Shown here piece after piece: positions 9,169-31,784 of a stretch of 64,000 nucleotides of DNA. The position numbers were made by a program, and so were the translations under genes. The stretch is from the NCBI RefSeq assembly GCF_000378125.1, contig NZ_KB899242.1, positions 496,001 to 560,000 on the forward strand, written 5' to 3'. Below the pieces are notes generated by a model that saw only the letters and a list, made by a program, of their open reading frames with translations, was not told the DNA's origin and did not search any database. Origin of the DNA: Rudaea cellulosilytica DSM 22992. Its GTDB lineage: Bacteria > Pseudomonadota > Gammaproteobacteria > Xanthomonadales > Rhodanobacteraceae. Each line of letters opens with the position of its first letter. Within the stretch, counting starts at the first letter, position 1.

Positions 9169-9191
9169 AGATTGAAGGCAGGTCCTATTCT
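9163..9191 (+). promoter_or_regulatory. iolCDB promoter
   Basis: -35 TTGCAA (9163-9168, the end of the second operator palindrome), a 17-bp spacer, and -10 TATTCT (9186-9191). The same TTGCAA-17-TAnnCT layout is found at the TonB receptor and sugar-binding-protein promoters. A repressor on the palindrome would block the -35. Confidence 0.65.
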
Positions 9192-9232
9192 CTCGCATAC
9201 GCCGCGCATTCTCGCAAGCCCACGCACCGCGC

Positions 9233-15877: not shown

Positions 15878-16996
15878 CTAGTTCGACGGGTCTTCCGCAG
15901 CACCCGGGATGCGTACGCCTTGTGCGTCGAATAACGTGAACCGGTCTGCATCGAACGCGAACGCGGCATCACTCTCGATGCGCAACGAGGCATCGCCGAA
16001 TATGCGCGCGGTGACACGAACGCCGCCGTCGAGATCGAGCGTGACGAGACTTTCCGGCCCCATCGCTTCGTTGGCGAACAGCTTGCCATGCAGGCGGTTC
16101 GTGGCGACATCGCCTGCGGTGATGCGCAGGTGCTCGGGACGTACGCCGACGGTGACGCGATCGCTGCGTTCGAGTGCTAGGTCGAGTGCCGGCCAACTCA
16201 CGATCGGCGCCATTTGCAGTCCTGCACCGCGCAGCGCGACATCATGTCCGTTGCGCGTCGCCTGCGCCGCCACCAGGTTCATCGGCGGATCGCCGACGAA
16301 ACCGGCAACGAACGTCGTCGCCGGCCGCCGGTAGATTTCGAGCGGCGGCGCGTACTGCACGATGTCACCCGCGCACATCACTGCGATGCGCGTCGACAGC
16401 GCCATGGCCTCGGCCTGGTCATGAGTCACGTAGACCGCGGTCATGCCGCGGCTGCGTTGCAGGTGATGCAGGAACGCCCTCGCCTCCACGCGCATGCGCG
16501 CGTCGAGATTCGACAGTGGCTCGTCGAACAGGAACGCGGCGGCCGGATGCACGAGAGCGCGCGCGAGCGACGTGCGCTGCTGCTGGCCACCCGAGATTTG
16601 TGCGGGCAGACGGTCGAGCAGTTGGCCGATATGCAACACTTCGGCGATCTCGCGCGCCTTCTCGTGTCGCGTCGCCTCGGCGACACCGCGCACCTTGAGC
16701 GGATAGGCGATGTTGTCGGCGATCGTCATGTGCGGGTAGAGCGCGTAGTCCTGGAACACCATGCCGATGTTGCGGTCTTTCGGCTGCGCACAAGTGACAT
16801 CGCGGCCACCGATGCGAATGCTGCCGCGGCTCGGCTGCTCGAGGCCGGCGATCATGCGCAGCGTCGTCGTCTTGCCACAGCCGGAAGGCCCGAGCAGGCA
16901 GACGAATTCGCCGTCGTCGATCGCGAGGTCGATCTCGCGGATCGTGTCGACCGCGCCGAAGCTCTTGCCGATCTTGTCGAGTTGGATCGATGCCAT
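15878..16996 (-). CDS. ABC transporter ATP-binding protein (MalK/UgpC type)
   Basis: 372 aa. Energises sugar or polyol import at the inner membrane. Walker A is GPSGCGKTT (residues 36-44), the signature is ISGGQQQR, Walker B is AAFLFDEPLSNLD and the H-loop is VYVTHDQAEAM. A C-terminal TOBE/OB region (about 240-365) is typical of the MalK subgroup, which may carry regulatory contacts. It follows the second permease by 8 bp and precedes iolE by 30 bp. Substrate assignment to inositol or an inositol glycoside rests on the operon and its shared operator, not on the protein itself. Confidence 0.92.
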   Translation of the reverse strand: MASIQLDKIGKSFGAVDTIREIDLAIDDGEFVCLLGPSGCGKTTTLRMIAGLEQPSRGSIRIGGRDVTCAQPKDRNIGMVFQDYALYPHMTIADNIAYPLKVRGVAEATRHEKAREIAEVLHIGQLLDRLPAQISGGQQQRTSLARALVHPAAAFLFDEPLSNLDARMRVEARAFLHHLQRSRGMTAVYVTHDQAEAMALSTRIAVMCAGDIVQYAPPLEIYRRPATTFVAGFVGDPPMNLVAAQATRNGHDVALRGAGLQMAPIVSWPALDLALERSDRVTVGVRPEHLRITAGDVATNRLHGKLFANEAMGPESLVTLDLDGGVRVTARIFGDASLRIESDAAFAFDADRFTLFDAQGVRIPGAAEDPSN

Positions 16997-17004
16997 GAAA
17001 AGCC

Positions 17005-17829
17005 TCAGGATTTGATTCCGCCGAAGAAGCGGAACCCGTATTTGCGGTTGACGTACCAGTACAGCGCGATCACCGGCAGCGAGTACAGCACCGAGTACGC
17101 GGCGAGCAGCGGCACGATCGGCGTACCGGCCTGCGAATAGAACGAATAGATCTCGACCGACGCGGGCATGCGCTGCTCACTGCGCAGGAGCACGAACGGA
17201 ATCAGAAACCCGCCCCAGACCTGAACGAAAGCCCAGACTGCGGCGATCGTCACGCCGGGCCGCAACACGGGCACGACGACGTCGACGAACGCACGCCATT
17301 GCGAAGCACCGGCGACGAGCGCCGACTCCTCGTAGCCGCGTGGAATGCTCGCGATGAAGTCGCGCAGGATAAACATGGCCGTGGGCAACAAGCCGCCGGC
17401 GAAGACGAGGATCACAGCGAGCTGGGTATCGATCAGGCCGAGCGCGTTGACGATCAGGAAGATCGGCACCATCGCCGCCGAACCCGACACGACCGAGGAG
17501 AACAACAGCAATACATATTCGATGACGCGCTTGCCGCGCAGCGTCGTGCGCGCGAGCGCATAAGCGGCCAGCGTCGCGGTCGTCGCCACGAGCAACACCG
17601 TGCCGAAGGCCTGCAGCAGCGAGTTGAGCAACGCACCGACAGCAGCGCCATTGGCGAATACGCGTGCGAAGTTCGCCAGGGTCGGCGGCTTCGGCAAGGC
17701 CAGATCGAGATCGGCCTGCGCATTGAACGGCGCGAACACGAACCAGATCAGCGGCAGCGCGAAGGCAACACCGAGCAGCGCCGCGCAGACGCTGAAGACG
17801 ATGCGCGAAACCAACTTACGACGGTTCAT
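17005..17829 (-). CDS. ABC sugar transporter permease (MalG/UgpE type)
   Basis: 274 aa inner-membrane protein with about six hydrophobic helices. The first spans roughly residues 9-30 (IVFSVCAALLGVAFALPLIW). The EAA loop that docks on the ATPase reads GYEESALVAGASQWRAFVDVVVPVLRPG. The C-terminus NRKYGFRFFGGIKS is usual for this subfamily. The ATG at 17829 overlaps the end of the partner permease by 4 bp; longer readings upstream are not membrane-like. It forms a CUT1-type importer with the neighbouring permease, ATPase and binding protein. Confidence 0.92.
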   Translation of the reverse strand: MNRRKLVSRIVFSVCAALLGVAFALPLIWFVFAPFNAQADLDLALPKPPTLANFARVFANGAAVGALLNSLLQAFGTVLLVATTATLAAYALARTTLRGKRVIEYVLLLFSSVVSGSAAMVPIFLIVNALGLIDTQLAVILVFAGGLLPTAMFILRDFIASIPRGYEESALVAGASQWRAFVDVVVPVLRPGVTIAAVWAFVQVWGGFLIPFVLLRSEQRMPASVEIYSFYSQAGTPIVPLLAAYSVLYSLPVIALYWYVNRKYGFRFFGGIKS

Positions 17830-18746
17830 GCGGCCTTCCCCTTCTTGCGCAGGCCGCGTTGCGCCAGGCGCAGATACGCAAGCGAAAACGCCAGGTTGAT
17901 CAGCATCACGATCACACCGATCGCCGCGCCCTTGCCGAACTCGAAGCTCTTGAACGCGATGCGGTAGGTGTAGATCGGCAGGATATCGCTCTCGAACGAT
18001 GGCCCACCCGCGGTCAGGAGGAACGGCGTGAACACGTTGAACGTCCACATCGTGATCAGGATCAGGTCAGTGACGATGTGCCCGCGGATCAACGGCAGAA
18101 CGATGTCGCGCAGCTTCTGCCAGCTCGAGGCACCGACCACATCGGCAGTTTCAAGATAGCTCGGCGGAATCGACTGCAGCGCCGCGTCGAACAGCATCAT
18201 CGAGAACGCCGCGCCGCGCCAGGCGTTGAACATGCAGATGGTCAGGAACGGATGTTCGATCAGGAAATCGGCTGCAGGAAAGTTCAATCCGCGCAGCAGC
18301 TGGTTGAGCGTGCCCGCGTCGCGATCGAGATAAGCGAACCAGGCGAAGCCGACGACGACATCCGGCAGGATCCAGGCGAGCATGACGATGCCATGCAGCA
18401 GCGACTTGGCGCGCGGCGACAGCTCGCGCGAGATCCAGGCGAGCACGAGTCCGAGCAGGACCTGCCCGCATAGAGCTGAAAACACGACGAACTGGATCGT
18501 CAGCCATAGCGACGGGCCGAAACCGCCTTGGCCCCAGAAAGTGGCCGGATCGAACAGATCGAGATAGTTTTTCAGGCCGACGAACTGCGGATGCAGCGCG
18601 TTCGCACCGAGCAGGCTGCGGTTGCTGAAGCTGACCGCGATGATCCAAAAGAACGGAAACACGACGAACAGACCGATCAGCAGTGCGGCGGGCGTCATGA
18701 ACGCCACGCCGGTGCGTGAAGACACCTTGGCGCCGCGCGAACTCAC
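17826..18746 (-). CDS. ABC sugar transporter permease (MalF/UgpA type)
   Basis: 306 aa with six predicted membrane helices, the first at VAFMTPAALLIGLFVVFPFFWIIAVSF split over residues about 14-40. The EAA loop reads YLETADVVGASSWQKLRDIVLPLIRG. It overlaps the binding-protein gene by 4 bp at its start and the second permease by 4 bp at its end. It is part of the inositol-regulon importer; the exact cargo is unproven. Confidence 0.92.
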   Translation of the reverse strand: MSSRGAKVSSRTGVAFMTPAALLIGLFVVFPFFWIIAVSFSNRSLLGANALHPQFVGLKNYLDLFDPATFWGQGGFGPSLWLTIQFVVFSALCGQVLLGLVLAWISRELSPRAKSLLHGIVMLAWILPDVVVGFAWFAYLDRDAGTLNQLLRGLNFPAADFLIEHPFLTICMFNAWRGAAFSMMLFDAALQSIPPSYLETADVVGASSWQKLRDIVLPLIRGHIVTDLILITMWTFNVFTPFLLTAGGPSFESDILPIYTYRIAFKSFEFGKGAAIGVIVMLINLAFSLAYLRLAQRGLRKKGKAA

Positions 18747-20170
18747 GAGCCGCTCCCCTGTGGCAGATCGAGCGCGACGACGCGGTCCGCGCCGACGATC
18801 TGCTTCATCGCGGCCGCATATTCGGCCATCGCCGCGCGCGGCGAGAGCTTTCCGGCGATGACGCTCTCGGTCATGCGCTGAATCTCGGCCGAGACTTTCT
18901 CGTAGTCGGCGTCGATCGGCCGGATCGTCGTCAGCGGCAAAAGCTCGCGCCCGCTCTCGCGCAGGAACTGCGAATGCGGCGGCAGCACGTCGTCGCGCAC
19001 GCAGAGATGTTCATTGAACTCCTGATAGCGACGCAGCGTCGGCGCCGAATTCATGAACGCGAGCAGCGACCAGGCCTCGCGCGGCTGCCTTGAATGCGGG
19101 TTGAGCACAAAGCTGTTGCCACCCGAGACGCTGACGAAATCCTGCCCGCGCACCGCGCTGCCCGGCGTGCGCGCCGGCATCTTCGTCCAACCGACGAGCG
19201 CGTCGCGATCGGCGATCGGGAAATCGCCCTGCGGATCGATCGCGGCGTAGTAGAACCAGTTGCTCTCGACCAGGATCGCACTTTTGCCGTGCTGGAAATC
19301 GGTGAAACTGCGGTTGCGCCCGCTGACCAGGCGTTGCGTGCGCGCCTCGCCGAGCTTCTCACCGATGTACACGACCTTGTAGAAATCGAGCGCGGCGAGC
19401 ATGCCCGGACTCTGCACGATCCAGCGGCCCTGCGCATCGCGCAGTTCCTCGCCGGTACCGGCGAGCAGCATCAGCCAGCCCTGCATCGTCGTCGCCTCGC
19501 CCATCGCGACGCCGGCATTGATCTGCAACGGAAAACTTGCCGGTTCTTTCTGCTTCAGCTTGCGCGCAGCTTCCAGGATGTCGTTCCACGAACGCGGCCG
19601 CCACTGATCCGCATCGAGTCCTGCGGCGCGAAACAAATCGCGACGATAGAAAATCATGCGTACATCGGTCTGCTCTGGCACGCCGTAACGCTTGTCGCGA
19701 AAACGCACGAGCGCCTGCGCGCTGTCGGGGATATGCGTCCAGCCATCCCATGCATCCGCCTCGGGACCGGCGACTTCGTCTAGAGGCTTGAGCAGGCCCG
19801 CGTCGACGAACCCGGGAATCTGGAATCCGTCGAACTCGGCGAGATCGGCGCCTTGGCCAGTAGCGAAGTCCAGCGCGAGCTGCTGCGACATCTGCTCGGC
19901 GCTGCCGGCGAATTCGCGCAACTTGACCGCCACATCGCGACCCTGTGCCTTCGCCACGGCGACATAGCCGGGGATCACGACCTGCTTGAGCCAGCGCGCC
20001 TCGGATCCGTTCACGCCGCCCTCGACGCAGCGACAGGCGATAGACACTTCTGTCGGCGCCGCCCGCACCATCGCCCACGCGGCCACGCCAAACAGCAACG
20101 CCATGGCACGCGCGCAACCACGCACGAACGAGGCGCGACGCGTCAAGCGGATGTGCAGCATCGCCGGCAT
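18743..20170 (-). CDS. ABC transporter extracellular solute-binding protein (sugar/polyol)
   Basis: 475 aa periplasmic binding protein of the sugar (family 1) type that delivers substrate to the two permeases. The N-terminus is basic then hydrophobic (RARAMALLFGVAAWAMVRA-like), a Sec signal ending near residue 37. SBP landmarks are DLAEFDGFQIPGFVDAGLLKPLDE, RYGVPEQTDVRMIFYRRDLF, SWNDILEAARKLK, and GGNSFVLNPHSRQPREAWSLLAFM. A frame open to 20224 exists, but that ATG would lie upstream of the predicted -10 (20214-20219); the ATG at 20170, with AGGAG upstream, or 20161, is therefore preferred. It is first in the six-gene minus operon. Confidence 0.88.
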   Translation of the reverse strand: MPAMLHIRLTRRASFVRGCARAMALLFGVAAWAMVRAAPTEVSIACRCVEGGVNGSEARWLKQVVIPGYVAVAKAQGRDVAVKLREFAGSAEQMSQQLALDFATGQGADLAEFDGFQIPGFVDAGLLKPLDEVAGPEADAWDGWTHIPDSAQALVRFRDKRYGVPEQTDVRMIFYRRDLFRAAGLDADQWRPRSWNDILEAARKLKQKEPASFPLQINAGVAMGEATTMQGWLMLLAGTGEELRDAQGRWIVQSPGMLAALDFYKVVYIGEKLGEARTQRLVSGRNRSFTDFQHGKSAILVESNWFYYAAIDPQGDFPIADRDALVGWTKMPARTPGSAVRGQDFVSVSGGNSFVLNPHSRQPREAWSLLAFMNSAPTLRRYQEFNEHLCVRDDVLPPHSQFLRESGRELLPLTTIRPIDADYEKVSAEIQRMTESVIAGKLSPRAAMAEYAAAMKQIVGADRVVALDLPQGSGS

Positions 20171-20213
20171 TGCTATTCTGTACTCCTGCGCAAGGCAGAA
20201 TTCAGGGACGTCG

Positions 20214-20242
20214 AGCTTAAGCATGCCGCAACGCTATTGCAA
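20214..20242 (-). promoter_or_regulatory. Promoter of the inositol ABC-iolE operon
   Basis: Reading on the minus strand: -35 TTGCAA (plus 20237-20242), 17-bp spacer, -10 TAAGCT (plus 20214-20219). Predicted start near 20207, giving a leader of about 37 nt to the ATG at 20170. Same geometry as the iolC and TonB promoters. Confidence 0.6.
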
Positions 20243-20283
20243 TTTGCATTGCAAAATTTAAATATTTGGAATGCAAATTCCAA
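20237..20283. promoter_or_regulatory. Composite IolR operator, ABC operon / glycosidase divergent promoter
   Basis: TTGCAATTTGCATTGCAA (20237-20254) and TTGGAATGCAAATTCCAA (20266-20283) are 29 bp apart centre to centre, the same pair as at 9122-9168 and 22373-22419 but in reverse order. The second includes GGAA-N6-TTCC. It lies between the minus-strand importer and the plus-strand glycosidase. A plus promoter can be read as TTGCAA (20237-20242) with TAAATA (20259-20264), overlapping the operator. Confidence 0.85.
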
Positions 20284-20296
20284 ATATTGGACTGCC

Positions 20297-22246
20297 ATGA
20301 CTGCGTCGACCATCCACCTCGTTTTCAAGACGCACCTCGATATCGGCTTTACCCAGCTCGCGGAGCGTGTGCGCCGGCAATACCACGACGTCTTCATTCC
20401 CGGCGCGATAGACACCGGCGAGCACTTCCTGCGCGAAGACCCGAACCAGCGCCTGTTCGTCTGGACCACCGGCGCCTGGCTGATCTGGGATCATCTGGAA
20501 ACGCAGCCGCCCGAACGCGTGCGCCGGCTCGAACGTGCGATCGACCACGGTCTGATCCGCTGGCATGCGCTGCCGTTCACCACGCACACCGAACTGATGT
20601 CACCAGCACTGTTTCGCGCGGGATTGACGTATGCGCAGGAGCTCGACCGCCGCTTCGGCGTGAAGACGATCGCGGCGAAGATGACCGACGTGCCGGGCCA
20701 CACGCTCGGCATCGTGCCGCTGCTCGCGCGCGCAGGGGTGAAATTCCTGCATATCGGCGTGAACACCGCATCGACCCCACCCGACGTGCCCGACCTGTTC
20801 CGCTGGCGCGCGCCCGGCGGAGAGGAAATCCTCGTCGCCTACCAGAAGAGCTACGGCTCGACCCATTTCGTCGATGGCACCGATCTCGCCCTGAGTTTTG
20901 CGCATACCAACGACAACATCGGCCCGCAAAGCGTCGGCCAGGCGGTGGACTGCCACCGCGACCTGCACGACGAATATCCCGACGCCGAGATCCGCGCCTC
21001 GACGCTTGATGCCTTTGCCGAGGCTATCTGGCCGCTGCGCGAACGCTTCCCGTTGATCGACCGCGAGATCGGCGATTCCTGGATCCACGGCATCGGCACC
21101 GACCCGGTGAAAGTCTCGCGCTTCCTCGACCTGCAGCGGCTCTATGACCGCTTCGATGAAGAAGGTCTCACACCGCAACGCGCCGCATTCGGTCGCCGCC
21201 TCTGCCTCGTGCCGGAACATACCTGGGGCGTCGACATCAAGACCTATCTGCGCGACGAGACCCATTGGGATCGCGACGACTTCGAGCGTGCGCGCCGCGA
21301 CGATCCACGCTTCGCGTTCTGCGAATCGTCGTGGGACGAACAGCGCGCGTATCTCGACACGGCTGTCGACGCGCTCGACGACGAGGATCGCGCGCTGGCG
21401 AATGTCGTCACCGACGCAACCAGTCCGACCATCGGTGCAGCGGTTGCCGGCGGGTCTGCGACAACGGTGTCTGAGATCGATATCGGCGGCTGGGGCCTCG
21501 TCATCGACCCAATCTCGGGCGCGTTGCAGAGTCTGTCGTCACCGGGCGGCGCAAGCATGGCGGGCGACAACCTGATCGCCTACGTCTACGAAAGCTACGA
21601 CGCCAACGATGTCGCCACGCATATGCGCACCTATCTGACCGATCGCGTGCGCTGGGCGCTGCTCGACCATGGCAAGCCCGGGCTCGAGCAGGCACGCACG
21701 GCACGGTCGGCGCGCTACACCACCGAGTTGGCCGGCGTCGAACGCGGGCCCGATCGCGTCGTGCTGCATTGGCGCACATCCGCTATCGCGCATGAGCTAC
21801 TCGGCGCGCCCGAGCAGCTGTCGCTCGACATCCGGCCGCTGAGCGCGACGCAGCTCCGGCTTGAACTCGTGATGCGCGACAAGCCGGCAAACCGCATGCC
21901 GGAGGCGAGTTTTCTCGCATTCGCGCCAGCCAGTGCGCAAGAATGGCAACTGCACAAGCTCGGCATCTGGCTGCCGGCCGCCGAAGTCGTGCGCAACGGC
22001 GGCGGTGCGCTGCAGGCCGTGTCCGCACTGCGGGCGAAACTGTCTTCCGGCGCGACGCTGCAGATCACGCCGTTCGATTCGCCGCTGATCGCTCCCCTCG
22101 ATGCTCCATTCATGGCGTTCACGAGCGCGCCGCCGGATTTCTCCGCGGGCGTCCGTTTCAACCTGCACAACAACAAGTGGGGCACGAACTTTCCGATGTG
22201 GTGCGCGGGCACGCTGCGCTTCCGTTTCGATCTGGAAATCTCGTAG
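20297..22246 (+). CDS. GH38-type glycosidase, DUF5054 family
   Basis: 649 aa, no signal peptide, so cytoplasmic. The start IHLVFKTHLDIGFT is the DUF5054 opening; His13 and Asp15 match the HxD zinc site of GH38 alpha-mannosidases, and KMTDVPGHTLGIVPLLARAG (Asp131, His135) matches the GH38 nucleophile segment normally written DPFGHS. The C-terminal half is a beta-sandwich as in GH38. It is divergent from the inositol importer and shares its composite operator, so I infer that it cleaves an imported inositol glycoside, possibly alpha-mannosyl-inositol. The ATG is only 13 bp from the operator edge and has a weak ribosome-binding site. Family assignment is good; substrate is unknown. Confidence 0.82.
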   Translation: MTASTIHLVFKTHLDIGFTQLAERVRRQYHDVFIPGAIDTGEHFLREDPNQRLFVWTTGAWLIWDHLETQPPERVRRLERAIDHGLIRWHALPFTTHTELMSPALFRAGLTYAQELDRRFGVKTIAAKMTDVPGHTLGIVPLLARAGVKFLHIGVNTASTPPDVPDLFRWRAPGGEEILVAYQKSYGSTHFVDGTDLALSFAHTNDNIGPQSVGQAVDCHRDLHDEYPDAEIRASTLDAFAEAIWPLRERFPLIDREIGDSWIHGIGTDPVKVSRFLDLQRLYDRFDEEGLTPQRAAFGRRLCLVPEHTWGVDIKTYLRDETHWDRDDFERARRDDPRFAFCESSWDEQRAYLDTAVDALDDEDRALANVVTDATSPTIGAAVAGGSATTVSEIDIGGWGLVIDPISGALQSLSSPGGASMAGDNLIAYVYESYDANDVATHMRTYLTDRVRWALLDHGKPGLEQARTARSARYTTELAGVERGPDRVVLHWRTSAIAHELLGAPEQLSLDIRPLSATQLRLELVMRDKPANRMPEASFLAFAPASAQEWQLHKLGIWLPAAEVVRNGGGALQAVSALRAKLSSGATLQITPFDSPLIAPLDAPFMAFTSAPPDFSAGVRFNLHNNKWGTNFPMWCAGTLRFRFDLEIS

Positions 22247-22372
22247 CCGAGCGACTCGAGGACGCCGCGCGCGAGTTGCCGCGCTGACATCTTGGCAACA
22301 TAAAACATCGCTAGATTCGTATCTCGTCTGCGCCTGCCGAAACGCTCCACCAAGGCAGACGCTTGTACGTAA

Positions 22373-22419
22373 ATAGAATTTTTTTTCCAACTGACACAAT
22401 GTTGCAATGCAAATTGCAA
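22373..22419. promoter_or_regulatory. Composite IolR operator before the TonB receptor-lipase operon
   Basis: A degenerate first palindrome at 22373-22390 (AGAA-N6-TTCC at 22375-22388) and a perfect second one, TTGCAATGCAAATTGCAA (22402-22419), with centres 29 bp apart, as at the two other iol promoters. It places the receptor, PI-PLC and PHP genes in the inositol regulon. Confidence 0.8.
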
Positions 22420-22442
22420 TAGAGTTTGCCGGTACCTATGCT
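22414..22442 (+). promoter_or_regulatory. Promoter of the TonB receptor-PI-PLC-PHP operon
   Basis: -35 TTGCAA (22414-22419, end of the operator), 17-bp spacer, -10 TATGCT (22437-22442). Predicted start near 22449, about 71 nt before the chosen ATG. The rest of the 22247-22519 gap shows no terminator for the glycosidase gene. Confidence 0.65.
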
Positions 22443-22519
22443 CGCTCGGCCTGACCGGCGCGCACCACACGCTGTCTCCCTCCCCGTTGCCAATGTCTTT
22501 CACTCCGGAGATTCCGTTC

Positions 22520-25186
22520 ATGTGCCACTACCGCATTCTGACCTTGTGCAGCACACTCGCCCTGTCCTGCGTTCTCGCAACAGCCGCACGCGCAACCGAC
22601 GCCACGCCCACGCCGGCGGACGCGGCTGCCGCCGCGCCGGATCCGCAGACCGCACCATCCGATGCGTCGGCGAAAACGACTCAGAACATGGAGTCGGTCG
22701 TCGTCACCGGTCGCGCCGGCGTCGATGCGCGGACCAAGGAGCAGACCAGCTATTCGATCACCCAGATCGGCGAGGAAGCGCTGCGTCTGCAGGCGCCGAC
22801 GAGCGTTACCGAATCGCTGAAGTCCGTGCCCGGCTTCTGGGTCGAGGCATCGGGAGGCGAAGCGAGTGGCAATGTGCGCGCGCGAGGCATTCCGGTCGAC
22901 GGCTTCGGCTCGATCACTTTGCTCGAGGACGGCGTACCGATCCAGCACGATCCGGGCCTGACTTGGTACAACGTCGACCAGGTGTTCCGCCTCGACGAAA
23001 CGATCGACGGAATCGAAGTCGTGCGCGGCGGTCCGTCGTTCCTGTTCTATCCGAACGCACCCGCGGCGGCAGTCAACTACATCCCGCGCAAGGTCGGCGA
23101 CGAGGCTTCGGGATTGTTCAAGTACACGTGGGGCGACTACGGCTACAACCGCGCCGACTTCTGGTACGGCGCACCGATCGGCAACACCGGCTGGAAGTAT
23201 TCATTCGGCGGCTTTTATCGCCAGGCCGATGGGGTCCGCGATCCGGGCTATACCGGCGACAAAGGCGGCCAGTTGCGCGGTACGATCTCCAAGGAATGGG
23301 AGGACGGCAAGTTCAGCTTCGACTTGAAGCATATGAACGACCGCGTCGATTTCTACCTGCCGATTCCGCTGCATCGCAATTCTTCGGGCGACATCGTCGC
23401 GGTGCCCGGCTTCGACGGCAACTACGATACCGTTGCCGGCCCCGAAACCGCGCATATGACGTTCCACACCAGCGAGGGTCCGTACAACTTCAACGGCGCC
23501 AATGGCACCTACGTCAATCGCACCCAGGCGACCGCAAAATTCGAGCAGAAGTTTGGCGACGACTGGAAGTTCTCCGACAGCTTCCGTTACAGCACGACCA
23601 ATACCAAGCGCAACGGCACGTTTCCGAACTCGGTGCTTTCCGGCATTTCCGAACTTGCCTCGCTAAACACGGCGGCAAACCGCGCCCTGTTCCCCGGAGC
23701 GGCGGGTTTCCAGCTGCGTTACACGGACAATCCGAACCAGGTTTTCGATCTCGGTTCGCTCGCCTCATCCGGATCGGGAGCGCTCAACGGCCAGAACGGC
23801 AACGGTCTCGTCCTCATCAACCAACTGCGCCCGCTGTGGATGCCGGAGCGCGAGTACAGCAATGACGCGCACGTGTCGACCAAGTTCGATTTCCTCGGCG
23901 CGCACGACTTCACGGCTGGCTTCTACTACTCGCATCAGAACATGGACTTCAACCGCGTATCGTCGATCGTACTGACCGATGTGCGCGGCAACGCGCGCCT
24001 GCTCGACGTGGTCGCGGTCGATGCGAATGGCAAACCGCTCGGCAGCCTTACTGCTGGTGGCATTCTGCGTAACGGTTCGGAATACGAACGCGATACCGGC
24101 AAGCAGGACAGCTACGCGTTCTATCTCGGCGACGAATGGCAGATCACCCACGACTTCCGCCTGGACTTCGGCTGGCGCTGGGACAAGAACGAGATGCACA
24201 ACACCAACACGACGCGCCTGCCGGCAACGAGCAGCTTCGTCTATAACGGGGTGACCTACTATAACCAGGGCGGCAACTATCTCTGCAATCTGAACGACGG
24301 GCTGTTCGCCGACACCCAGGTCGCCTGCGCGAACCCGAACAATCCGTTCACCACGACCGACCACTCCTTCAGCAAGTCCGGCTGGACGATCGGCGCGAAC
24401 TACCAGTTGACCGATCGCGCAGGCCTGTTCGCGCGCTATACCTCGACTTATCGCCTGCCGAACTTCAGTACGTTCGTCGCCAACTCGCTCGCGCTGCCGA
24501 TCACGCAGACCATGGACCTCGGTGAGGTCGGCGCGAAGTGGGGCAGCGAATGGGCGACGTTGTACGCTACCTGGTTCTATACCAAATACGACAACGTCAC
24601 CTTCAGCACGCAGGTTCTGGCCCCGGACAACGTGACACTGCTCGCGCAGACCGCGGTCGCCCAGACCAAGACCACTGGCTTCGAGCTCGAAGGCGATATC
24701 ACCCCGACCGCCTGGTTCGACCTGCATTTTTCCGCAACGATCGAAGATCCGAAGTACCAGAATCTGCGCGCGACGATCTACAGCAGGGACTCCAGCGGCA
24801 ATCTCGTGCCGACGATTTCCGACTTCAGCGGCAATCAGCTGATCCGCGTGCCGAAAGTGAGCTATCGCCTGGCGCCGCGCCTCATGCTGCTCGACAACAA
24901 GTTGCAGTTGCAATTGTCGTACGAGTACGAAGGCAAGCGCTATTCGGACACGGCCAATTTGTCGGTACTACCCGAGTACCACGTCATCAACGCGAGTGCG
25001 GAATACGACATCAACGAGCGCGTGAGCGTTTTCGGCTACGTCGACAACCTCACCAACTCCGTCGGCCTGACCGAAGGCAATCCGCGCTCCGGCGACGTGA
25101 TCTCGACCGACGCGGGCAAGACCGTGTTCCTCGCGCGTCCGCTGCTCGGCCGTGCCTATCGCCTGTCGCTCATGTACAAGTTCTGA
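22520..25186 (+). CDS. TonB-dependent receptor of the inositol regulon
   Basis: 888 aa outer-membrane active transporter. The signal peptide is MCHYRILTLCSTLALSCVL..., cleaved after AARA. A linker rich in Ala/Pro/Asp leads to the plug domain at about residues 60-190 (VVVTGRAGVD, SVTESLKSVPGFWVEA, GIPVDGFGSITLLEDGVPIQ, GIEVVRGGPSFLFYPNAPAAAVN), then the 22-strand barrel ending in the C-terminal phenylalanine YRLSLMYKF. CCGGAG lies 9 nt before the ATG at 22520; an earlier ATG at 22493 is less well placed. It leads an operon with PI-PLC and a PHP hydrolase under the composite IolR operator, so the cargo is probably an inositol-containing compound; specificity cannot be read from sequence. Confidence 0.93.
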   Translation: MCHYRILTLCSTLALSCVLATAARATDATPTPADAAAAAPDPQTAPSDASAKTTQNMESVVVTGRAGVDARTKEQTSYSITQIGEEALRLQAPTSVTESLKSVPGFWVEASGGEASGNVRARGIPVDGFGSITLLEDGVPIQHDPGLTWYNVDQVFRLDETIDGIEVVRGGPSFLFYPNAPAAAVNYIPRKVGDEASGLFKYTWGDYGYNRADFWYGAPIGNTGWKYSFGGFYRQADGVRDPGYTGDKGGQLRGTISKEWEDGKFSFDLKHMNDRVDFYLPIPLHRNSSGDIVAVPGFDGNYDTVAGPETAHMTFHTSEGPYNFNGANGTYVNRTQATAKFEQKFGDDWKFSDSFRYSTTNTKRNGTFPNSVLSGISELASLNTAANRALFPGAAGFQLRYTDNPNQVFDLGSLASSGSGALNGQNGNGLVLINQLRPLWMPEREYSNDAHVSTKFDFLGAHDFTAGFYYSHQNMDFNRVSSIVLTDVRGNARLLDVVAVDANGKPLGSLTAGGILRNGSEYERDTGKQDSYAFYLGDEWQITHDFRLDFGWRWDKNEMHNTNTTRLPATSSFVYNGVTYYNQGGNYLCNLNDGLFADTQVACANPNNPFTTTDHSFSKSGWTIGANYQLTDRAGLFARYTSTYRLPNFSTFVANSLALPITQTMDLGEVGAKWGSEWATLYATWFYTKYDNVTFSTQVLAPDNVTLLAQTAVAQTKTTGFELEGDITPTAWFDLHFSATIEDPKYQNLRATIYSRDSSGNLVPTISDFSGNQLIRVPKVSYRLAPRLMLLDNKLQLQLSYEYEGKRYSDTANLSVLPEYHVINASAEYDINERVSVFGYVDNLTNSVGLTEGNPRSGDVISTDAGKTVFLARPLLGRAYRLSLMYKF

Positions 25187-25202
25187 TCGCACCCTGCGGT
25201 GA

Positions 25203-26486
25203 ATGCCTCATACCAATAACATGCGCGCGCAAACACTCTCTCCCCCAGCCGACATCGGGGGAGAGATTTTCGCGACATTCTTCCGCAGCGCGCGCCATTC
25301 ACGTCGCTCCGTTGCCGGATTTTCCGGCGCCTTGCTTGCCATCGGTACGCTGTCTTCTCCTTGCTTGGCTGCGGCGAAAACCGACTGCAATCTCTCCGCC
25401 ACCAGCGCTGCCCAGGCCGGCGACAGCGCCTGCTCGCGCGCCTGGATCGATGCCAACCTGCGCCTCGACGACATCCAGGTGATCGGCACGCACAACAGCT
25501 ACAAGCAGCGCATGCCGCCCGAGGAATTCACCGCTCACCACGCGCTGGACGCGCACGGCGCTGACACCCTCGACTACGGCCACCGCCCGCTCGACGAACA
25601 GCTCGACGCGGGCATGCGCGAGCTCGAACTCGATGTCTGGGACGATCCGCAGGGTGGCCGCTGGCTGCATCCGCCGGGCGCGCTGCGCCAAGGCTTTTCC
25701 TCGCCGCCTTGGCCGCCCGCACAGGCCGAGCAGATGACCAAGCCGGGTTTCAAGGTCATGCATCTGGCCGATATCGACTTCCGCTCGACTTGCATGACCT
25801 TCGCCGCCTGCCTTTCGATCATCCGCGACTGGTCCACCGCGCACCCGCGCCACGCACCGATCACGATTCTGATCAACGCCAAGGACGGGAAACTCGGTCC
25901 CGGCTCGGTTGCCGCGCTCAAGTTCGACGAGGCCGCGTTCGACCGGCTCGATGCCGAGATCCGCAGCGTGTTCCAGCCCGCGCAATTGATCACGCCGGGC
26001 GACATCCAGGGCAAATTCCCGACGCTGCGCGACGCCGCGCGCGCCGGCCATTGGCCCACGCTTGGCCAAGCGCGAGGGCGCATCCTGTTCGCGCTCGACG
26101 AGAGCGACGACAAGATCGCACTCTATCGCGGTGCGCGCAAATCACTCGAAGGTCGGGCGATGTTCGCCACGGTCAAGGAAGACTCGCCCGCCGCAGGCTA
26201 CATTACCCTGAACGACCCGATTGCGGACCAGGGACGCATCCGCACCGCGGTAAGTGCCGGGCTGCTCGTGCGCACGCGGGCAGACGCTGATACGTTCGAG
26301 GCGCGGCGCAACGACACCGCGCGCCGCGAGGCCGCGTTCGCGAGCGGCGCGCAATTCGTCTCGACCGACTACTTCGAACCCGACCCACGCTTCGGTCCCT
26401 ATCGCGTACGCTTCGACGGCGGCGCGATCGCACGCTGCAATCCGGTGCGCGCGGCGGCGAAGTGCGCCGGAGTCCCCATCGAGTGA
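25203..26486 (+). CDS. Ca2+-dependent phosphatidylinositol-specific phospholipase C-like protein
   Basis: 427 aa. A twin-Arg-containing N-terminus and a hydrophobic stretch ending LSSPCLAAA (about residues 35-58) indicate export. The catalytic domain of the PI-PLC-C1 family carries QVIGTHNSYK (His97), DAGMRELELDVWDD (metal/acid residues) and KVMHLADIDF (His187), the two-histidine arrangement of PI-PLC. The expected reaction is cleavage of phosphatidylinositol, or a glycosylated form, to diacylglycerol and inositol phosphate. It starts 16 bp after the TonB receptor and is followed by the PHP hydrolase 4 bp later, all under the inositol operator. This is the best evidence that the regulon targets inositol lipids. 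Start codons at 25203 and 25221 are both possible. Confidence 0.85.
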   Translation: MPHTNNMRAQTLSPPADIGGEIFATFFRSARHSRRSVAGFSGALLAIGTLSSPCLAAAKTDCNLSATSAAQAGDSACSRAWIDANLRLDDIQVIGTHNSYKQRMPPEEFTAHHALDAHGADTLDYGHRPLDEQLDAGMRELELDVWDDPQGGRWLHPPGALRQGFSSPPWPPAQAEQMTKPGFKVMHLADIDFRSTCMTFAACLSIIRDWSTAHPRHAPITILINAKDGKLGPGSVAALKFDEAAFDRLDAEIRSVFQPAQLITPGDIQGKFPTLRDAARAGHWPTLGQARGRILFALDESDDKIALYRGARKSLEGRAMFATVKEDSPAAGYITLNDPIADQGRIRTAVSAGLLVRTRADADTFEARRNDTARREAAFASGAQFVSTDYFEPDPRFGPYRVRFDGGAIARCNPVRAAAKCAGVPIE

Positions 26487-26490
26487 TTCT

Positions 26491-28005
26491 GTGAAAGTGC
26501 AAATACTTCTGTTGTCGTTGCTGTTTTCCGTCGCGGCGTTTGCGCAGACCAGCGACAAGCCCGATCTGACCCTGACCGGCAAACTCGACGGCAAGGATAA
26601 TCAGACCTACAGGCTCGTGCCGTTCGACGTGCCGGCTGGCGTCGATCGCATCACCGTCGACTTCGCCTACACCGGCCGCGACGAAAAGACCACGATCGAC
26701 CTCGGCCTGCTCGGCCCGGGCGGCTTCAAGAACAATGCGTTCCGCGGCTGGAGCGGCGGCAACAAGAGCCGCTTTACCGTGTCCGCGACCGACGCGACGC
26801 CGTCCTACCTGCCCGGGCCGATCGCGCCGGGCCGCTGGAACCTGCTGCTTGGCATCCCGAACATCCGCGAGAAGGCGCACGCCGACTACACGGCAAAAGT
26901 GTACTTCTCCAGAAATGGAAAAATTCCCGACCTGCTCGACGAGCCGCTGCGCGCGGAAGCGGGCTGGTACCGCGGTGACCTGCACATGCACGGCGCGCAC
27001 AGCGACGGCGCGTGCACGCCGCAGAGCGGCAAGGGCAAGAAGGTGCCCTGCCCGCTGTTCCTCACCGCGCAGACCGCGGCCGAGCGTGGACTCGACTTCA
27101 TCGCGCTTTCCGACCACAACACGGTCTCGCAGGCGAACGCGGTGCGCGAACTGCAGCCGTATTTCGACCGCCTGCTGCTGCTGCCCGGGCGCGAACTGAC
27201 CACGTTCACCGGCCACGCCAACCTGCTCGGCAATTGGGTGCCACTCGACTTCCGTGTGGGTAGCGCGGACGTGCCGGACTGGAACACGTTGCTGCGCAAC
27301 GCGGAAAAATTCGGCGGCTTCGTCTCGATCAACCACCCGATCCGGCTTTCCGGCGAGATCTGCATGGGCTGCGGCTGGACCGCGAAACCCGAAGTCGACC
27401 TTCGCCTCGTCCAGGCCATCGAAGTCGTCAACACCAACGACGCGGACACGGCGATCTCTGGCATTCCGTTCTGGCAGGCGCAACTCGACAAGGGCTATCG
27501 CCTTACTGCGATCGGTGGCAGCGACGACCATAACGCGAAGCAGTGGCACGAAAGCCAAGGCGTGGTCGGCATCGGCACGCCGACCACGGTCGTGCATGCG
27601 AAGAACCTTTCCCAGCGCGGCGTGCTCGACGCGCTGCGCGCGGGTCACGTCTACGTCGACGTCTTCGGCAGCAAGGACCGCCACCTCGAACTCACCGCGA
27701 AGGGCCAAGGTTTCGACGCGGAAATGGGCGACGAGGTGAAGATCGCGAAAGACGGCAAGGCGGATTTCTTGCTCAAGGTCACCAATGTCGCCGACGGCAG
27801 CGTGGAAATCATCGTCGACGGCAAGGTCGCTCCGATGATCGATCAGCCGAAGATTGCCGGCACGTCGCAAGTCTTCGCGTTCGCCTGGGCCAGTGACGGC
27901 GGCCGCCACACGCTGCGTGCGAACGTGCGCAATGCCGACGGCAAGCTCGTCCTGATCGGCAATCCGATCTACGTCAATCGTACCGGTACTGCGGCGAAAC
28001 CTTGA
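26491..28005 (+). CDS. Exported PHP-domain metallohydrolase (CehA/McbA family)
   Basis: 504 aa from a GTG that begins VKVQILLLSLLFSVAAFAQ, a Sec signal peptide. Residues about 25-150 form a beta-rich N-terminal domain, and from 160 on there is a PHP domain: RGDLHMHGAHSDG (His165, His167), ALSDHNT (Asp208, His209), GRELTTFTGHANLLG, INHPIR and GGSDDH. These are the metal ligands of CehA-type phosphoesterases. It follows PI-PLC by 4 bp, so I infer dephosphorylation of the released inositol phosphate in the periplasm, letting free inositol or an inositol glycoside enter the ABC importer. CehA itself acts on a carbamate ester, so the substrate class is not fixed. The frame extends upstream into PI-PLC, but that part is a shadow. 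Confidence 0.83.
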   Translation: MKVQILLLSLLFSVAAFAQTSDKPDLTLTGKLDGKDNQTYRLVPFDVPAGVDRITVDFAYTGRDEKTTIDLGLLGPGGFKNNAFRGWSGGNKSRFTVSATDATPSYLPGPIAPGRWNLLLGIPNIREKAHADYTAKVYFSRNGKIPDLLDEPLRAEAGWYRGDLHMHGAHSDGACTPQSGKGKKVPCPLFLTAQTAAERGLDFIALSDHNTVSQANAVRELQPYFDRLLLLPGRELTTFTGHANLLGNWVPLDFRVGSADVPDWNTLLRNAEKFGGFVSINHPIRLSGEICMGCGWTAKPEVDLRLVQAIEVVNTNDADTAISGIPFWQAQLDKGYRLTAIGGSDDHNAKQWHESQGVVGIGTPTTVVHAKNLSQRGVLDALRAGHVYVDVFGSKDRHLELTAKGQGFDAEMGDEVKIAKDGKADFLLKVTNVADGSVEIIVDGKVAPMIDQPKIAGTSQVFAFAWASDGGRHTLRANVRNADGKLVLIGNPIYVNRTGTAAKP

Positions 28006-28054: not shown

Positions 28055-29146
28055 ATGACGCCTGTCCGATCGACCACCAGCAAACGCAAACCCGGTGCGA
28101 TGAAAACCGCCTCGCGCCAGGTTCCCGCAGACCCGCGCTACACCGCCGCAGTGATCCCGACGACGATTCTCGCCGTGCTCGCGCAGATCGCCGATGCGGA
28201 GCGCGTCGCGGTCGAGCCGTGGCTGGCCGGGCTTGGCATCACGCGTGCGCAGATCGACGACGCCGCGGTGCGCGTGTCCTATCGCCAGGCCAGCCTCATC
28301 ATCAAGCGCGCTCTGCGCGCGATCCCGCGCAGCAGCTTCGGCCTCGAGGTCGGCGCGCACCAGTCCAGCGGCACGTTCGGCATTATGGGGCTGGCGATGA
28401 TGACTGCGCGTACGTTCGGCGAAGCGGTGAACATCGGCATCGAGCACGCCGACATCACTGGCGCATTGATGGACGTGGAGCTCGAGGTACTCAATGTGCG
28501 CGAGGTCGCGCTCGTCGCGCGGCCGCGCTTTGCCGACGAGGAGATCCTCGTCTTCCTCTGCGAGGAACTGTTCGCCAGCACCTTCAACCTCGCACGCAGC
28601 ATCGTCGGCGCCGCCTTCAAGCCCGAGCGGCTCGAACTCACCTACCCGCCGCCGCCGCACGCGGCCGACTACCGCAGGCTGTTCGACTGCGAGGTGCGTT
28701 TCGGCGCCAGCCGCAACCGCGTCGTCATCGGCTCGCGCTGGCTCGACATGCGCCTGCCGACGCATCATCCGGTCAGCGCACAACAGGCGCTCGCGATCTG
28801 CCGCGAGCAGGCGGCGCAGATCAAACGCCAGAGCGAGATCGTCGCCTCGGTCGAACGCATCCTGCGCCGCCGTCTCGCCGAGCATCCGACGTTGGGCGAA
28901 GTGGCCTCGAATCTCAACCTGTCCGAACGCACGCTGCGCCGCCAGCTCGCCGCCGCCGGTCGTGTCTATCGTGACATCCATGACCAGCTGCGTACCGAGC
29001 GCGCGCTCGAACTGCTCAGCGCGGGCGCCTTGAGCATCGCCGACATCGGCAGCGAGGTCGGCTATTCCGACGCACGCGAATTCCGACGCGCGTTCAAACG
29101 CTGGACCGGAGCCGCGCCGACCGCGATGCGTCCGGGCGCCGGCTGA
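28055..29146 (+). CDS. AraC-family transcriptional regulator
   Basis: 363 aa from the ATG at 28055 (another ATG at 28100 is possible; neither has a clear ribosome-binding site). The N-terminal 200 residues match the arabinose-binding-like domain found in OruR/ArgR-type AraC proteins (RAIPRSSFGLEVGAHQSSGTFGIMGLAMMTARTFGEAVNI). The C-terminal pair of helix-turn-helices covers about residues 265-360 (PTLGEVASNLNLSERTLRRQLAAAG, SIADIGSEVGYSDAREFRRAFKRWTG). It lies 49 bp after the PHP gene and before the beta-helix/cytochrome pair; its target could be either side. The hairpin after it suggests that its transcript ends there. Confidence 0.88.
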   Translation: MTPVRSTTSKRKPGAMKTASRQVPADPRYTAAVIPTTILAVLAQIADAERVAVEPWLAGLGITRAQIDDAAVRVSYRQASLIIKRALRAIPRSSFGLEVGAHQSSGTFGIMGLAMMTARTFGEAVNIGIEHADITGALMDVELEVLNVREVALVARPRFADEEILVFLCEELFASTFNLARSIVGAAFKPERLELTYPPPPHAADYRRLFDCEVRFGASRNRVVIGSRWLDMRLPTHHPVSAQQALAICREQAAQIKRQSEIVASVERILRRRLAEHPTLGEVASNLNLSERTLRRQLAAAGRVYRDIHDQLRTERALELLSAGALSIADIGSEVGYSDAREFRRAFKRWTGAAPTAMRPGAG

Positions 29147-29166
29147 AAGGCGCAAGCGGCGTGGCA

Positions 29167-29194
29167 AAATCGGCCATCAAGTAATGGCCGATTT
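29167..29194. terminator. Hairpin after the AraC gene, probable terminator
   Basis: AAATCGGCCAT (29167-29177) and ATGGCCGATTT (29184-29194) form a perfect 11-bp stem with a 6-nt loop, 20 bp after the AraC stop. Only three Ts end the stem, so termination may be partial. Confidence 0.6.
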
Positions 29195-29225
29195 GCCCCC
29201 CAGATGTAGCCCGCGCCCCCCTACC

Positions 29226-29243
29226 CTCAAACGTTCGTTTGAG
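29226..29243. promoter_or_regulatory. Palindromic operator before the beta-helix/cytochrome pair
   Basis: CTCAAACG-TT-CGTTTGAG, 8-bp arms, ending 40 bp before the GTG start at 29284. The core CAAAC-N4-GTTTG fits the published PsrA box (C/G)AAAC-N2-4-GTTT(G/C), a TetR-family site linked to fatty-acid sensing. The regulator is not in the window. Confidence 0.5.
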
Positions 29244-29283
29244 AGCACATTGACGCATTGAGTCCGAAGAAGGGAGAAACGCC

Positions 29284-30510
29284 GTGCGCAAACTCGCCAT
29301 TGTCGCCCTCTGTGCCATTGCCGCCGGTTGTGGGAAAGGCCCGCCGCCCGCGCCGAGCGATGCGGAGGCGGCGTTCGAAAAGAAACTGCAGGAGCAGTTC
29401 CTCGACGCCAAGCCGGGCACGGTCATCGAGATTCCGCCGGGCAAGCATTCGCTGCAGCGTGTGCTGACCCTGCGCGCGAACGGGGTCACCGTACGGGGCG
29501 CGGGTGCGGACAAGAGCATTCTCTCGTTCCAGAACCAGATCTCCGGCCCCGAAGGCATGTTGGTCTACGCGAACGATTTCACAATCGAACACCTAGCGAT
29601 CGAGGACTCGAAGGGCGACGGACTCAAGATCAACGACGGCGAGAACATCACGATCCGCGACGTACGCGTCGAGTGGACCGCCGGCCCGTCCAAGGACAAC
29701 GGCGCCTATGCGATCTATCCGGTCAAGTGCAAGAACGTGCTGATCGAGGATTCGGTCGCGATCGGTTCGCGTGACGCCGGCATCTACGTCGGCCAGTCGC
29801 AGGACATCGTCGTGCGCCGCAACCGCGCCGAGAAGAATGTCGCCGGCATCGAGATCGAGAACTCGATCCGCGCCGATGTCTATGAGAACACCGCGACCGG
29901 CAACACCGGCGGCATCCTCGTCTTCAACATGCCCGACCTGACCCAGCACGGCGAGCACGCGCGTGTGTACAAGAACAAGGTCGTTGCCAACAACCTCGGC
30001 AACTTCGGCGCCAAGGGCACCGCGGTCGCGAGCGTGCCGGCGGGCTCGGGCGTGATCGTCACCTCCAATCCGAAAGTCGAAATCTTCGACAACGACATCG
30101 CCGACAACCGCACCGCGAACCTCATCATCGCCAGCTACTACATCACCAACTTTGCCGACAAGAAACCGACCGAGGGCTACGATCCGTATCCGAAGTCGAT
30201 CTACGTCCACGACAACCGCTTCTCGGGCGGCGGCGATTCACCGGACGGCCTCGACTGGAAGGCGCTCAAGGTGTCGATGTTCGGCATCAACGGCCATTTC
30301 CCCGACGTGCTCTGGGACGGTTTCGTCGACGCCAAGGCGCAGGTCAATGGCCAGTACCCGGCCGAGCAGCGCATCTGCGTGAAGAACGGCGAGGTCGAGG
30401 TGCTCAACGTCGACGGGCCAAACAAGTTCTCCAATCCGAAAGTGTTCAAGGACGAGTTCCATTGCGAGCTGCCGCCGCTTGCCGCGGTCGAAATGAAGGG
30501 CAAGGCTTGA
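29284..30510 (+). CDS. Parallel beta-helix lipoprotein (partner of SO2930-type cytochrome)
   Basis: 408 aa. GTG start with GGGAGA upstream; MRKLAIVALCAIAAGCGKG is a lipoprotein signal with Cys16 as the lipidated residue. A right-handed beta-helix follows, with repeated turns such as NITIRDVRVEW, NVLIEDSVAIGSRDAGIYVGQSQDIVVRRNRAEKN split across residues 115-210 and DVYENTATGNTGGILVF. A C-terminal segment with two cysteines closes the protein. It matches the TIGR03805 type that is regularly found beside TIGR03806 diheme cytochromes, as here, with a 1-nt TGATG overlap. The function of the pair is unknown; an anchored extracytoplasmic binding or carbohydrate/lipid-processing role is only a guess. 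Confidence 0.85.
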   Translation: MRKLAIVALCAIAAGCGKGPPPAPSDAEAAFEKKLQEQFLDAKPGTVIEIPPGKHSLQRVLTLRANGVTVRGAGADKSILSFQNQISGPEGMLVYANDFTIEHLAIEDSKGDGLKINDGENITIRDVRVEWTAGPSKDNGAYAIYPVKCKNVLIEDSVAIGSRDAGIYVGQSQDIVVRRNRAEKNVAGIEIENSIRADVYENTATGNTGGILVFNMPDLTQHGEHARVYKNKVVANNLGNFGAKGTAVASVPAGSGVIVTSNPKVEIFDNDIADNRTANLIIASYYITNFADKKPTEGYDPYPKSIYVHDNRFSGGGDSPDGLDWKALKVSMFGINGHFPDVLWDGFVDAKAQVNGQYPAEQRICVKNGEVEVLNVDGPNKFSNPKVFKDEFHCELPPLAAVEMKGKA

Positions 30511-31694
30511 TGTCGTCGTTCGCCCGAATTTCTTCCGCAATACTTGCGCTCGCAGCCCTCGCCGGCTGCGCGCGCACACCGCAGCCGGTGCACTCGTTCG
30601 CCGAAGGCAAGCCCGACAAGCTCAGCGACTGGCACCTCGTCGAGGCGCGCGACGGCAGGCTTGTGCCCAATACCGACGTCGTGCCCTACGACCTCAACAC
30701 ACCGTTGTTCAGCGATTACGCGCACAAGTTCCGCACGCTGTGGATGCCGAAGGGCACAACGGCGAAGTACGACGCCGAAGGCCCGTTCGATTTCCCGGTC
30801 GGCACGGTGCTGACGAAAACCTTCTTCTATCCGAAAACCGGCGGCGATGCGAAAGCCGTCGCACGCACCTACGACACCTCGCGCGATTTCGCCGCCGGCA
30901 GCGCAAACGAGGCGCTCGACCTGGCTACGGTGCGCCTCATCGAGACGCGCATCCTCGTGCGTCGCGAAAAAGGCTGGGAAGCGATTCCCTATGTCTGGAA
31001 CGCTGCGCAGACCGATGCCGAACTCGCGCGCACGGGCGACGCGATCGCGCTCGAACTCGTCGACACGGAAGCTTCAAAAGCCGGGCGCGATGAATCGCGG
31101 CCCGCGAATGCCCGCGAAGCGTTTACCTACGTCGTGCCCAACGAGAACCAATGCGCCGGCTGCCACGTCACCAACGTCAAGGCCAAGGCGATCGAGCCGC
31201 TCGGTCCGCGCGCGCGCCACATCAATCGCGACTACGCCTATGCCGCCGGCGCGGAAAACCAGCTCGCGCACTGGACCAAGCTCGGCATGCTCGCGGGCGC
31301 TCCCGATGCCGCGCAGGCGCCGCGCGACGCCAATTGGCACGATGCGAAGGCGCCCGTCGCCGAGCGCGCGCGCGCCTATCTCGACGTCAACTGCAGCATG
31401 TGCCACAGCCCGACCGGCCCGGCCAACACGACCGCCCTCGACCTGCGTAGCGCCAACACCGACCTGCGTCGCCTCGGCCTGTGCAAGCCACCCGTGGCTG
31501 CCGGTCGCGGTACTGGCGATCGCCTGTTCGACATCGTGCCGGGCAAACCCGACGATTCGATCCTGCTCTACCGCGTCACGTCGAATGAAGCCGGCGTGAT
31601 GATGCCCGAGATGGGCCGCAACACCACGCACAAAGAGGGTGTCGAACTGATCCGCGACTGGATCGCCGCGACGTCCGGAAACTGCGACGCCTGA
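30510..31694 (+). CDS. SO2930-family diheme c-type cytochrome lipoprotein
   Basis: 394 aa. The signal ends ILALAALAGC, a lipobox. Two heme-binding motifs, CAGCH (about residue 215) and CSMCH (about residue 302), define a diheme cytochrome c. Before them lies a conserved extracytoplasmic domain (DLNTPLFSDYAHKFRTLWMP, GTVLTKTFFYP, ETRILVRREKGWEAIPYVW). The C-terminus has NTTHKEGVELIRDWIA. The family is paired with beta-helix proteins in many Proteobacteria. The ATG at 30510 overlaps the upstream stop (TGATG). It probably transfers electrons in the periplasm; substrate unknown. Confidence 0.88.
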   Translation: MSSFARISSAILALAALAGCARTPQPVHSFAEGKPDKLSDWHLVEARDGRLVPNTDVVPYDLNTPLFSDYAHKFRTLWMPKGTTAKYDAEGPFDFPVGTVLTKTFFYPKTGGDAKAVARTYDTSRDFAAGSANEALDLATVRLIETRILVRREKGWEAIPYVWNAAQTDAELARTGDAIALELVDTEASKAGRDESRPANAREAFTYVVPNENQCAGCHVTNVKAKAIEPLGPRARHINRDYAYAAGAENQLAHWTKLGMLAGAPDAAQAPRDANWHDAKAPVAERARAYLDVNCSMCHSPTGPANTTALDLRSANTDLRRLGLCKPPVAAGRGTGDRLFDIVPGKPDDSILLYRVTSNEAGVMMPEMGRNTTHKEGVELIRDWIAATSGNCDA

Positions 31695-31712
31695 GAAAAA
31701 TAATTGAAAAGT

Positions 31713-31761
31713 GCGGCCAAGGATGGCCGCTTTTTGATTCTCGCGATCACCGGACGATCGC
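31713..31761 (+). terminator. Intrinsic terminator after the cytochrome gene; member of the TTCTC repeat family
   Basis: GCGGCC (31713-31718), loop AAGGAT, GGCCGC (31725-31730) and five Ts form a classic terminator 18 bp after the cytochrome stop. It continues GATTCTC and a second perfect stem GCGATC (31743-31748) / GATCGC (31756-31761). The whole layout matches 5131-5178 and, more loosely, 1774-1825. Confidence 0.8.
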
Positions 31762-31784
31762 ACAAATCAACGAGGGAGGCTGCG

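Follow-up and report, generated by a model that had tools for sequence, protein, structure and literature searches.

The window, the whole 64,000-nucleotide stretch of DNA that was analysed, carries three consecutive genes encoding a TonB-dependent outer-membrane receptor, a phospholipase C (PLC) of the PI-PLC-C1 family and a PHP-type metallohydrolase, and the iol genes of inositol catabolism lie in the same region (Table 1). The gaps between the three genes measure 16 bp (TonB-PLC) and 4 bp (PLC-PHP), and no terminator-like site was found in either of them. A single transcript is thus supported, and the three genes likely form one operon, as had been proposed in a preliminary description; its placing of these genes behind a composite iol operator agrees with the coordinates, domain scores and operator sites. 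The receptor gene adjoins a PHP gene or a PLC-PHP pair in 17 of the 17 related operons compared. A start of the PHP gene at 26254, which represented only the mechanically longest open reading frame, was dropped, and the GTG codon at 26491 was taken.

Table 1 Coordinates of the iol genes, operators and TonB-PLC-PHP operon in the window
Feature	Position	Strand	Basis or remark
iolG, inositol 2-dehydrogenase	7216-8238	-	TIGR04380, 397 bits (cut-off 355)
RpiR-family regulator (HTH_6 + SIS), candidate IolR	8210-9076	-	Pfam
Composite operator of iolC	9124-9166	+	GGAA box 9124-9137, GCAA box 9153-9166
iolC-iolJ fusion	9233-11221	+	NF047869, 951 bits
iolD	11218-13095	+	TIGR04377, 932 bits
iolB	13092-13892	+	TIGR04378, 308 bits
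GFO/IDH/MocA protein and IolE-like protein, both under the iolG/iolE cut-offs	13908-15847	-	
CUT1 ABC permeases and ATPase (MalFGK/UgpC-like)	15878-18746	-	
CUT1-type substrate-binding protein (SBP_bac_1)	18743-20224	-	
Composite operator, ABC transporter/DUF5054 divergon	20239-20281	-	GCAA box 20239-20252, GGAA box 20268-20281
DUF5054 protein, weak GH38 N-terminal similarity, no obvious signal peptide	20306-22246	+	DUF5054, 149 bits
Eroded Pho-box-like element CTGACATCTTGGCAACAT, then TAGATT	22284-22317	+	Intact in L023 as CTGACATTCACCTGACAC
Upstream half of the TonB-promoter operator, AGAATTTTTTTTCC (GGAA-N6-TTCC, 1 mismatch)	22375-22388	+	29-bp spacing as at iolC and ABC
Downstream box GCAATGCAAATTGC (GCAA-N6-TTGC), overlapping -35 TTGCAA (22414-22419)	22404-22417	+	Kept in L023, L024 and G140
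Predicted -10 TATGCT, 17 bp past TTGCAA	22437-22442	+	Hexamer spacing
TonB-dependent outer-membrane receptor, 888 aa	22520-25186	+	Pfam Plug 52 bits, barrel 102 bits
PI-PLC-C1 (PF16670), Ca2+-dependent-type phospholipase C, predicted N-terminal export signal	25203-26486	+	Pfam; signal by eye
CehA/McbA-type PHP metallohydrolase, predicted signal peptide, GTG start	26491-28005	+	NCBIfam NF038032; signal by eye

The ABC importer of the iol region is a CUT1 glycoside-type system, which the preliminary description had overlooked. A Peripla_BP-type binding protein, as in an IbpA/CUT2-type inositol importer, was not found, the binding protein being of the SBP_bac_1 (CUT1) type. A MalFGK-like inositol importer, InoEFGK, has been predicted in Thermotoga (PMC3750489). 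A single divergent iol operator lies between the importer genes and the DUF5054 gene, which places both in the same regulon. The DUF5054 protein scores 22.7 bits against GH38N, under the cut-off of 25, and a sequence search of the PDB with it gave no meaningful match; it is a candidate inositol-glycoside hydrolase. Since this protein is weakly GH38-like and the importer is of the glycoside type, the compound taken up may be an inositol glycoside and not free inositol, the InoEFGK prediction notwithstanding. The neighbouring MocA-like and IolE-like genes score 104 and 141 bits, well under the iolG and iolE cut-offs, unlike the true iolG, and possibly represent a branch for inositol glycosides or another inositol isomer.

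The phospholipase covers the complete PF16670 profile (positions 1-329 of 329) with 397 bits against a gathering score of 29.9. All 16 homologues compared retain H97 and H187 as well as the acidic residues E142, D144 and D148, which upholds the earlier assignment to the PI-PLC-C1 family with both catalytic histidines. From family knowledge, and unmapped on the 3h4w active site, we take H97 and H187 to be catalytic and the acidic residues to belong to the metal site. A profile search of the PDB matched only PI-PLC structures, namely, 3h4w (E 8.6e-19), presumably the enzyme of Streptomyces antibioticus, and 5fyo (E 1.5e-14). The protein belongs by profile search to the same family as these Ca2+-dependent-type PI-PLCs, but it is only distantly related to them in sequence and, unlike them, is embedded in a transport operon. 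Its substrates would be inositol lipids, phosphatidylinositol among them. Bacterial PI-PLCs are discussed mostly as virulence factors or phosphate scavengers.

The PHP protein matches the CehA/McbA family NF038032 over residues 157-495 with 286 bits (cut-off 80), in agreement with its earlier description as a PHP/CehA-type hydrolase. The PHP-type metal residues H164, H166, H208, E234, H241, H281, D344 and H346 (putative ligands; numbering counted from 26494) recur unchanged in 15 homologues. The protein resembles the metallohydrolases of this family in the domain match and in the retained His, Asp and Glu residues, and differs from them in an extra N-terminal region of ~150 residues, a predicted export and the tie to a TonB receptor. 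The family is named for carbamate hydrolysis; no carbamate context was seen around the gene in the loci compared. A PDB search with the PHP sequence or profile gave no meaningful match and no solved relative, and an AlphaFold2 model built from three sequences reached a mean pLDDT of 35, too low to be used. In two relatives (L037 and L038), a His_Phos_2 phosphatase beside the PLC gene occupies the place that the PHP gene has here. Because this third place can be taken by a phosphatase from a different family, a phosphoesterase role of the PHP protein is supported, short of proof, and the protein may act as an inositol-phosphate phosphatase.

The composite iol operator claimed ahead of the receptor gene is borne out by its two boxes, their spacing and the rarity of the exact site. 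The exact operator TTGCAATGCAAATTGCAA occurs at two sites in the 4.34-Mb genome, 20237-20254 and 22402-22419, both in this cluster, while the reversed pattern yielded 0 sites in the same genome; a third copy with two mismatches (9151-9168) lies ahead of iolC. A GGAA-N6-TTCC-like partner precedes each of the three GCAA boxes by exactly 29 bp (start to start); this partner is exact at iolC and the ABC/DUF5054 divergon and has one mismatch at the receptor gene. A common layout characterizes these three promoters: GGAA-N6-TTCC, 29 bp, GCAA-N6-TTGC, 17 bp and a -10-like hexamer. The TTGCAA at the end of GCAA-N6-TTGC is predicted to be able to act as a -35 element, and the spacer to the -10-like hexamer is 16-18 bp at 16 of the 16 operator sites listed. 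GGAA-N6-TTCC is the IolR motif of Caulobacter, where it was tested by mutation (PMC2597717). According to passages of that paper, the alphaproteobacterial regulon resembles the one described here in this operator, in more than one operator copy in the iolC promoter and in the distribution of iol genes and an ABC importer over several loci. The second palindrome GCAA-N6-TTGC and the fixed 29-bp spacing do not appear in those passages, nor are a TonB receptor or a phospholipase mentioned there, whereas the regulon here includes a CUT1 importer and the TonB-PLC-PHP operon.

A key question is whether the operon is a true member of the iol regulon. In two MAGs (G200 and G201), the TonB-PLC-PHP triad and the iol genes are located on different contigs, yet the triad keeps the box. 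Exact or one-mismatch operators mark the iolC promoter, the ABC/DUF5054 divergon and the triad in G200, and nowhere else; in G201 they are found at iolC, the SBP/DUF5054 divergon and the triad, with one additional site containing two mismatches. In another genus (G140), the operator precedes a GH92-TonB-PLC-PHP-PfkB-GH92 operon situated between iolDEBA and iolR-iolG. Among the 13 genomes searched, 7 of 7 exact operators were at iol loci, and none was detected in the seven of these genomes that have no iolD above the cut-off. In the iolD-positive G067, G090, G115 and G135, the TonB-PHP pairs are without PLC, and no exact operator was found away from iol. Since the operator is present at unlinked triads and inside the G140 iol cluster and the exact boxes are restricted to iol loci, the membership of the TonB-PLC-PHP operon in the iol regulon, also proposed earlier, is strongly supported at the sequence level. 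A literature search for a locus combining TonB, PI-PLC and iol genes found none.

The distribution of the module is uneven. Seven relatives, which represent more than one family, have the triad with the PLC gene between the TonB and PHP genes, while TonB-PHP without PLC was found in ten more genomes, mostly beside comF-like and biotin genes (neighbours judged by eye). Because the pair often occurs without PLC, the receptor and the PHP protein may have another ligand. The PLC-less pairs, like the family name CehA/McbA, would be consistent with the import and cleavage of an unrelated compound, e.g., a carbamate or an ester, by a pair that the PLC joined by chance. We regard this as quite improbable, since the PLC gene is placed between the two others in seven relatives of more than one family, and since, among the 13 genomes, the iol operator is found at TonB-PHP or TonB-PLC-PHP operons only where PLC is present.

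Across the order sample, 4 of the 6 triad genomes (G184, G106, G120 and G032) have no iolD over the cut-off. Thus, the triad can exist without inositol catabolism, and a strictly inositol-only reading was dropped. An association of iolD with PLC across the order was not clear (PLC in 4 of 19 iolD-positive genomes, over the cut-off, vs 13 of 181 other genomes). A class-wide PLC search matched 4 of 369 genomes from outside the order, and within the class sample the triad thus seems to be limited to this order; a search of genome contigs with a single PLC sequence matched two close MAGs. In G080 (L054, 4369-8992), the receptor of a TonB-PHP pair is extended at its N-terminus by what looks like a signalling domain, and sigma-factor and FecR-like genes precede the pair (both by eye), which suggests a possible surface signalling control of this pair.

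Upstream of the receptor gene in the relatives, half-sites of the form YGTCAY/GACAY recur at distances of 11, 22 and 33 bp. Pairs at 11 or 22 bp numbered 17 vs 0.13 expected in shuffles (sequences within one genus are non-independent), and any such pair occurs in 2.5% of 440 other upstream regions. TGTCAY-type direct repeats with an 11-bp period are the pattern known for PhoB sites, and a related TGTCATAAAAGTTTCAA is carried by the pstS promoter of the window genome, the Pho-like consensus being only loosely checked at pstS promoters. When the whole window genome was searched with a Pho-box consensus, 19 matches were obtained vs 9 in the reversed control, mostly chance sites; therefore, the Pho inference rests on the cross-genus periodicity. 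Both the Pho-like site and the iol box are kept in L023 and L024, whereas the window has an eroded Pho-like site that by itself is no better than chance (p ~0.9). Upstream of the G140 operon, no spaced Pho-like half-site pair was found.

The closest known system is the phosphate-starvation PUSI cluster of Flavobacterium johnsoniae (Fjoh_4168-4173), which combines a PF16670 enzyme with a TonB channel and is induced by phosphate depletion (PMC8115612). As described in passages of that paper, a TonB-dependent SusC-type channel adjoins a PF16670 Ca2+-dependent PI-PLC and a second periplasmic phosphodiesterase, much as here, and organophosphate scavenging by PUSI fits the Pho-like promoters of the relatives of our operon. 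In the same passages, PUSI differs in its Bacteroidetes SusCD pair, its induction by Pi depletion and a CpdA/calcineurin-like partner instead of PHP; inositol-regulon control is not described in them, whereas an iol operator is present here. Could the operon, like PUSI, chiefly scavenge phosphate from phosphodiester lipids or headgroups, with the iol operator as a minor input and inositol not serving as carbon? The Pho-like repeats ahead of the operon in most genera, the triads without iolD and the presence of a PF16670 protein in a Pi-starvation-induced cluster speak for it. We nevertheless consider it unlikely, given that the iol operator of the window is intact beside an eroded Pho-like box, that the G140 operon lies inside an iol cluster without a spaced pair and that unlinked triads carry the iol operator as well.

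In most relatives, Pho-box-like repeats precede a TonB-PHP operon that either includes or lacks PLC, and the module therefore looks older than its iol wiring. In a tree test of the TonB receptor, a single clade of iol-wired triads was rejected (AU p 0.019); the PHP and PLC trees pointed in the same direction without significance (p 0.083 and 0.093). On the receptor data, the iol wiring probably arose twice, and a phosphate-scavenging unit would probably have been put under IolR about twice. The L023 receptor (7418-9976) is 60% identical to that of the window, compared with 79% for PLC and 86% for PHP, which suggests that the receptor may have been exchanged or rapidly changed between the two; the L024 receptor is 94% identical to that of the window.

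From the gene families, operon layout, operators, Pho-like repeats and linkage, which are observed directly, we infer the substrates, product flow, binding regulator and direction of regulation. The reading that we favour, with reasonable though far from full confidence, is an organophosphate-scavenging module (TonB receptor, exported PI-PLC and exported PHP protein) in the inositol regulon, probably a phosphate unit formerly and rewired about twice. The RpiR-type IolR would sit on the composite operator overlapping the -35 element until inositol or a derivative relieves repression. The PI-PLC would then cleave the headgroup from phosphatidylinositol or a mannosylated inositol lipid of decaying fungi, plants or other microbes, and the TonB receptor would deliver soluble inositol phosphate or some larger precursor to the periplasm. 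There, the PHP protein would open or remove the phosphate, and the CUT1 importer and iol enzymes would use inositol or an inositol glycoside as carbon, the phosphate being retained.

PLC-family genes in the order have further informative neighbours: GH92 alpha-mannosidases (twice in L026, once in L039), a GH76 enzyme (L037), the above-mentioned histidine phosphatases and a GDPD phosphodiesterase (L036). The alpha-mannosidases (GH92, GH76) and histidine phosphatases suggest glycosylated inositol lipids. A narrower form of the favoured explanation would have mannosylated inositol lipids or glycans (GPI, MIPC, PIM-like) trimmed by alpha-mannosidases, after which PLC would free inositol phosphate and PHP would dephosphorylate it. 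The inositol 2-OH must be free for a cyclising PI-PLC to act, and we speculate that a 2-linked mannose would have to be removed before the PLC step. This form agrees with the GH92 genes flanking the triad on both sides in G140, the PfkB kinase there, the GH92 and GH76 genes adjoining PLC in L039 and L037, the GH38-like DUF5054 protein in the window regulon and the CUT1 glycoside importer. It is possible but doubtful, as for most triads the flanks revealed no glycosidase (L025 and L027 judged by eye, L028 and L029 left out), the GH38 match is under the cut-off and DUF5054 has no known activity. Tentatively, and with somewhat less than even confidence, a modular lipid-scavenging unit (TonB, PI-PLC and phosphoesterase) can be envisaged that changes from one nutrient to another through its promoter, with a PhoB-controlled ancestor serving phosphorus supply, transfer to IolR about twice for carbon, L023 and L024 with both sites as present-day intermediates and glycosylated inositol lipids as food in the IolR-controlled lineages.

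Of the preliminary interpretation, the operon, the PI-PLC family and the iol regulon hold, while the Pho-box-like promoters, PLC-less pairs, iolD-less triads and alpha-mannosidase neighbours had been overlooked. In the favoured reading, sequence evidence ties a PI-PLC, its dedicated outer-membrane receptor and a candidate phosphoesterase to the sugar-type catabolism of inositol, which offers a testable path by which inositol lipids of the environment could supply inositol as carbon. The relatives represent a natural series (Pho-like only; Pho-like and iol; iol with an eroded Pho-like site) for a regulator change of a nutrient-scavenging operon, and the CehA/McbA PHP family gains a concrete substrate hypothesis.

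The triad is followed by a block (28103-34271) encoding an AraC-type regulator, a right-handed beta-helix protein, a protein without a Pfam match and a second TonB receptor. This block was not found in L024 and is kept in L023 (86-93%), and it is probably a separate module.
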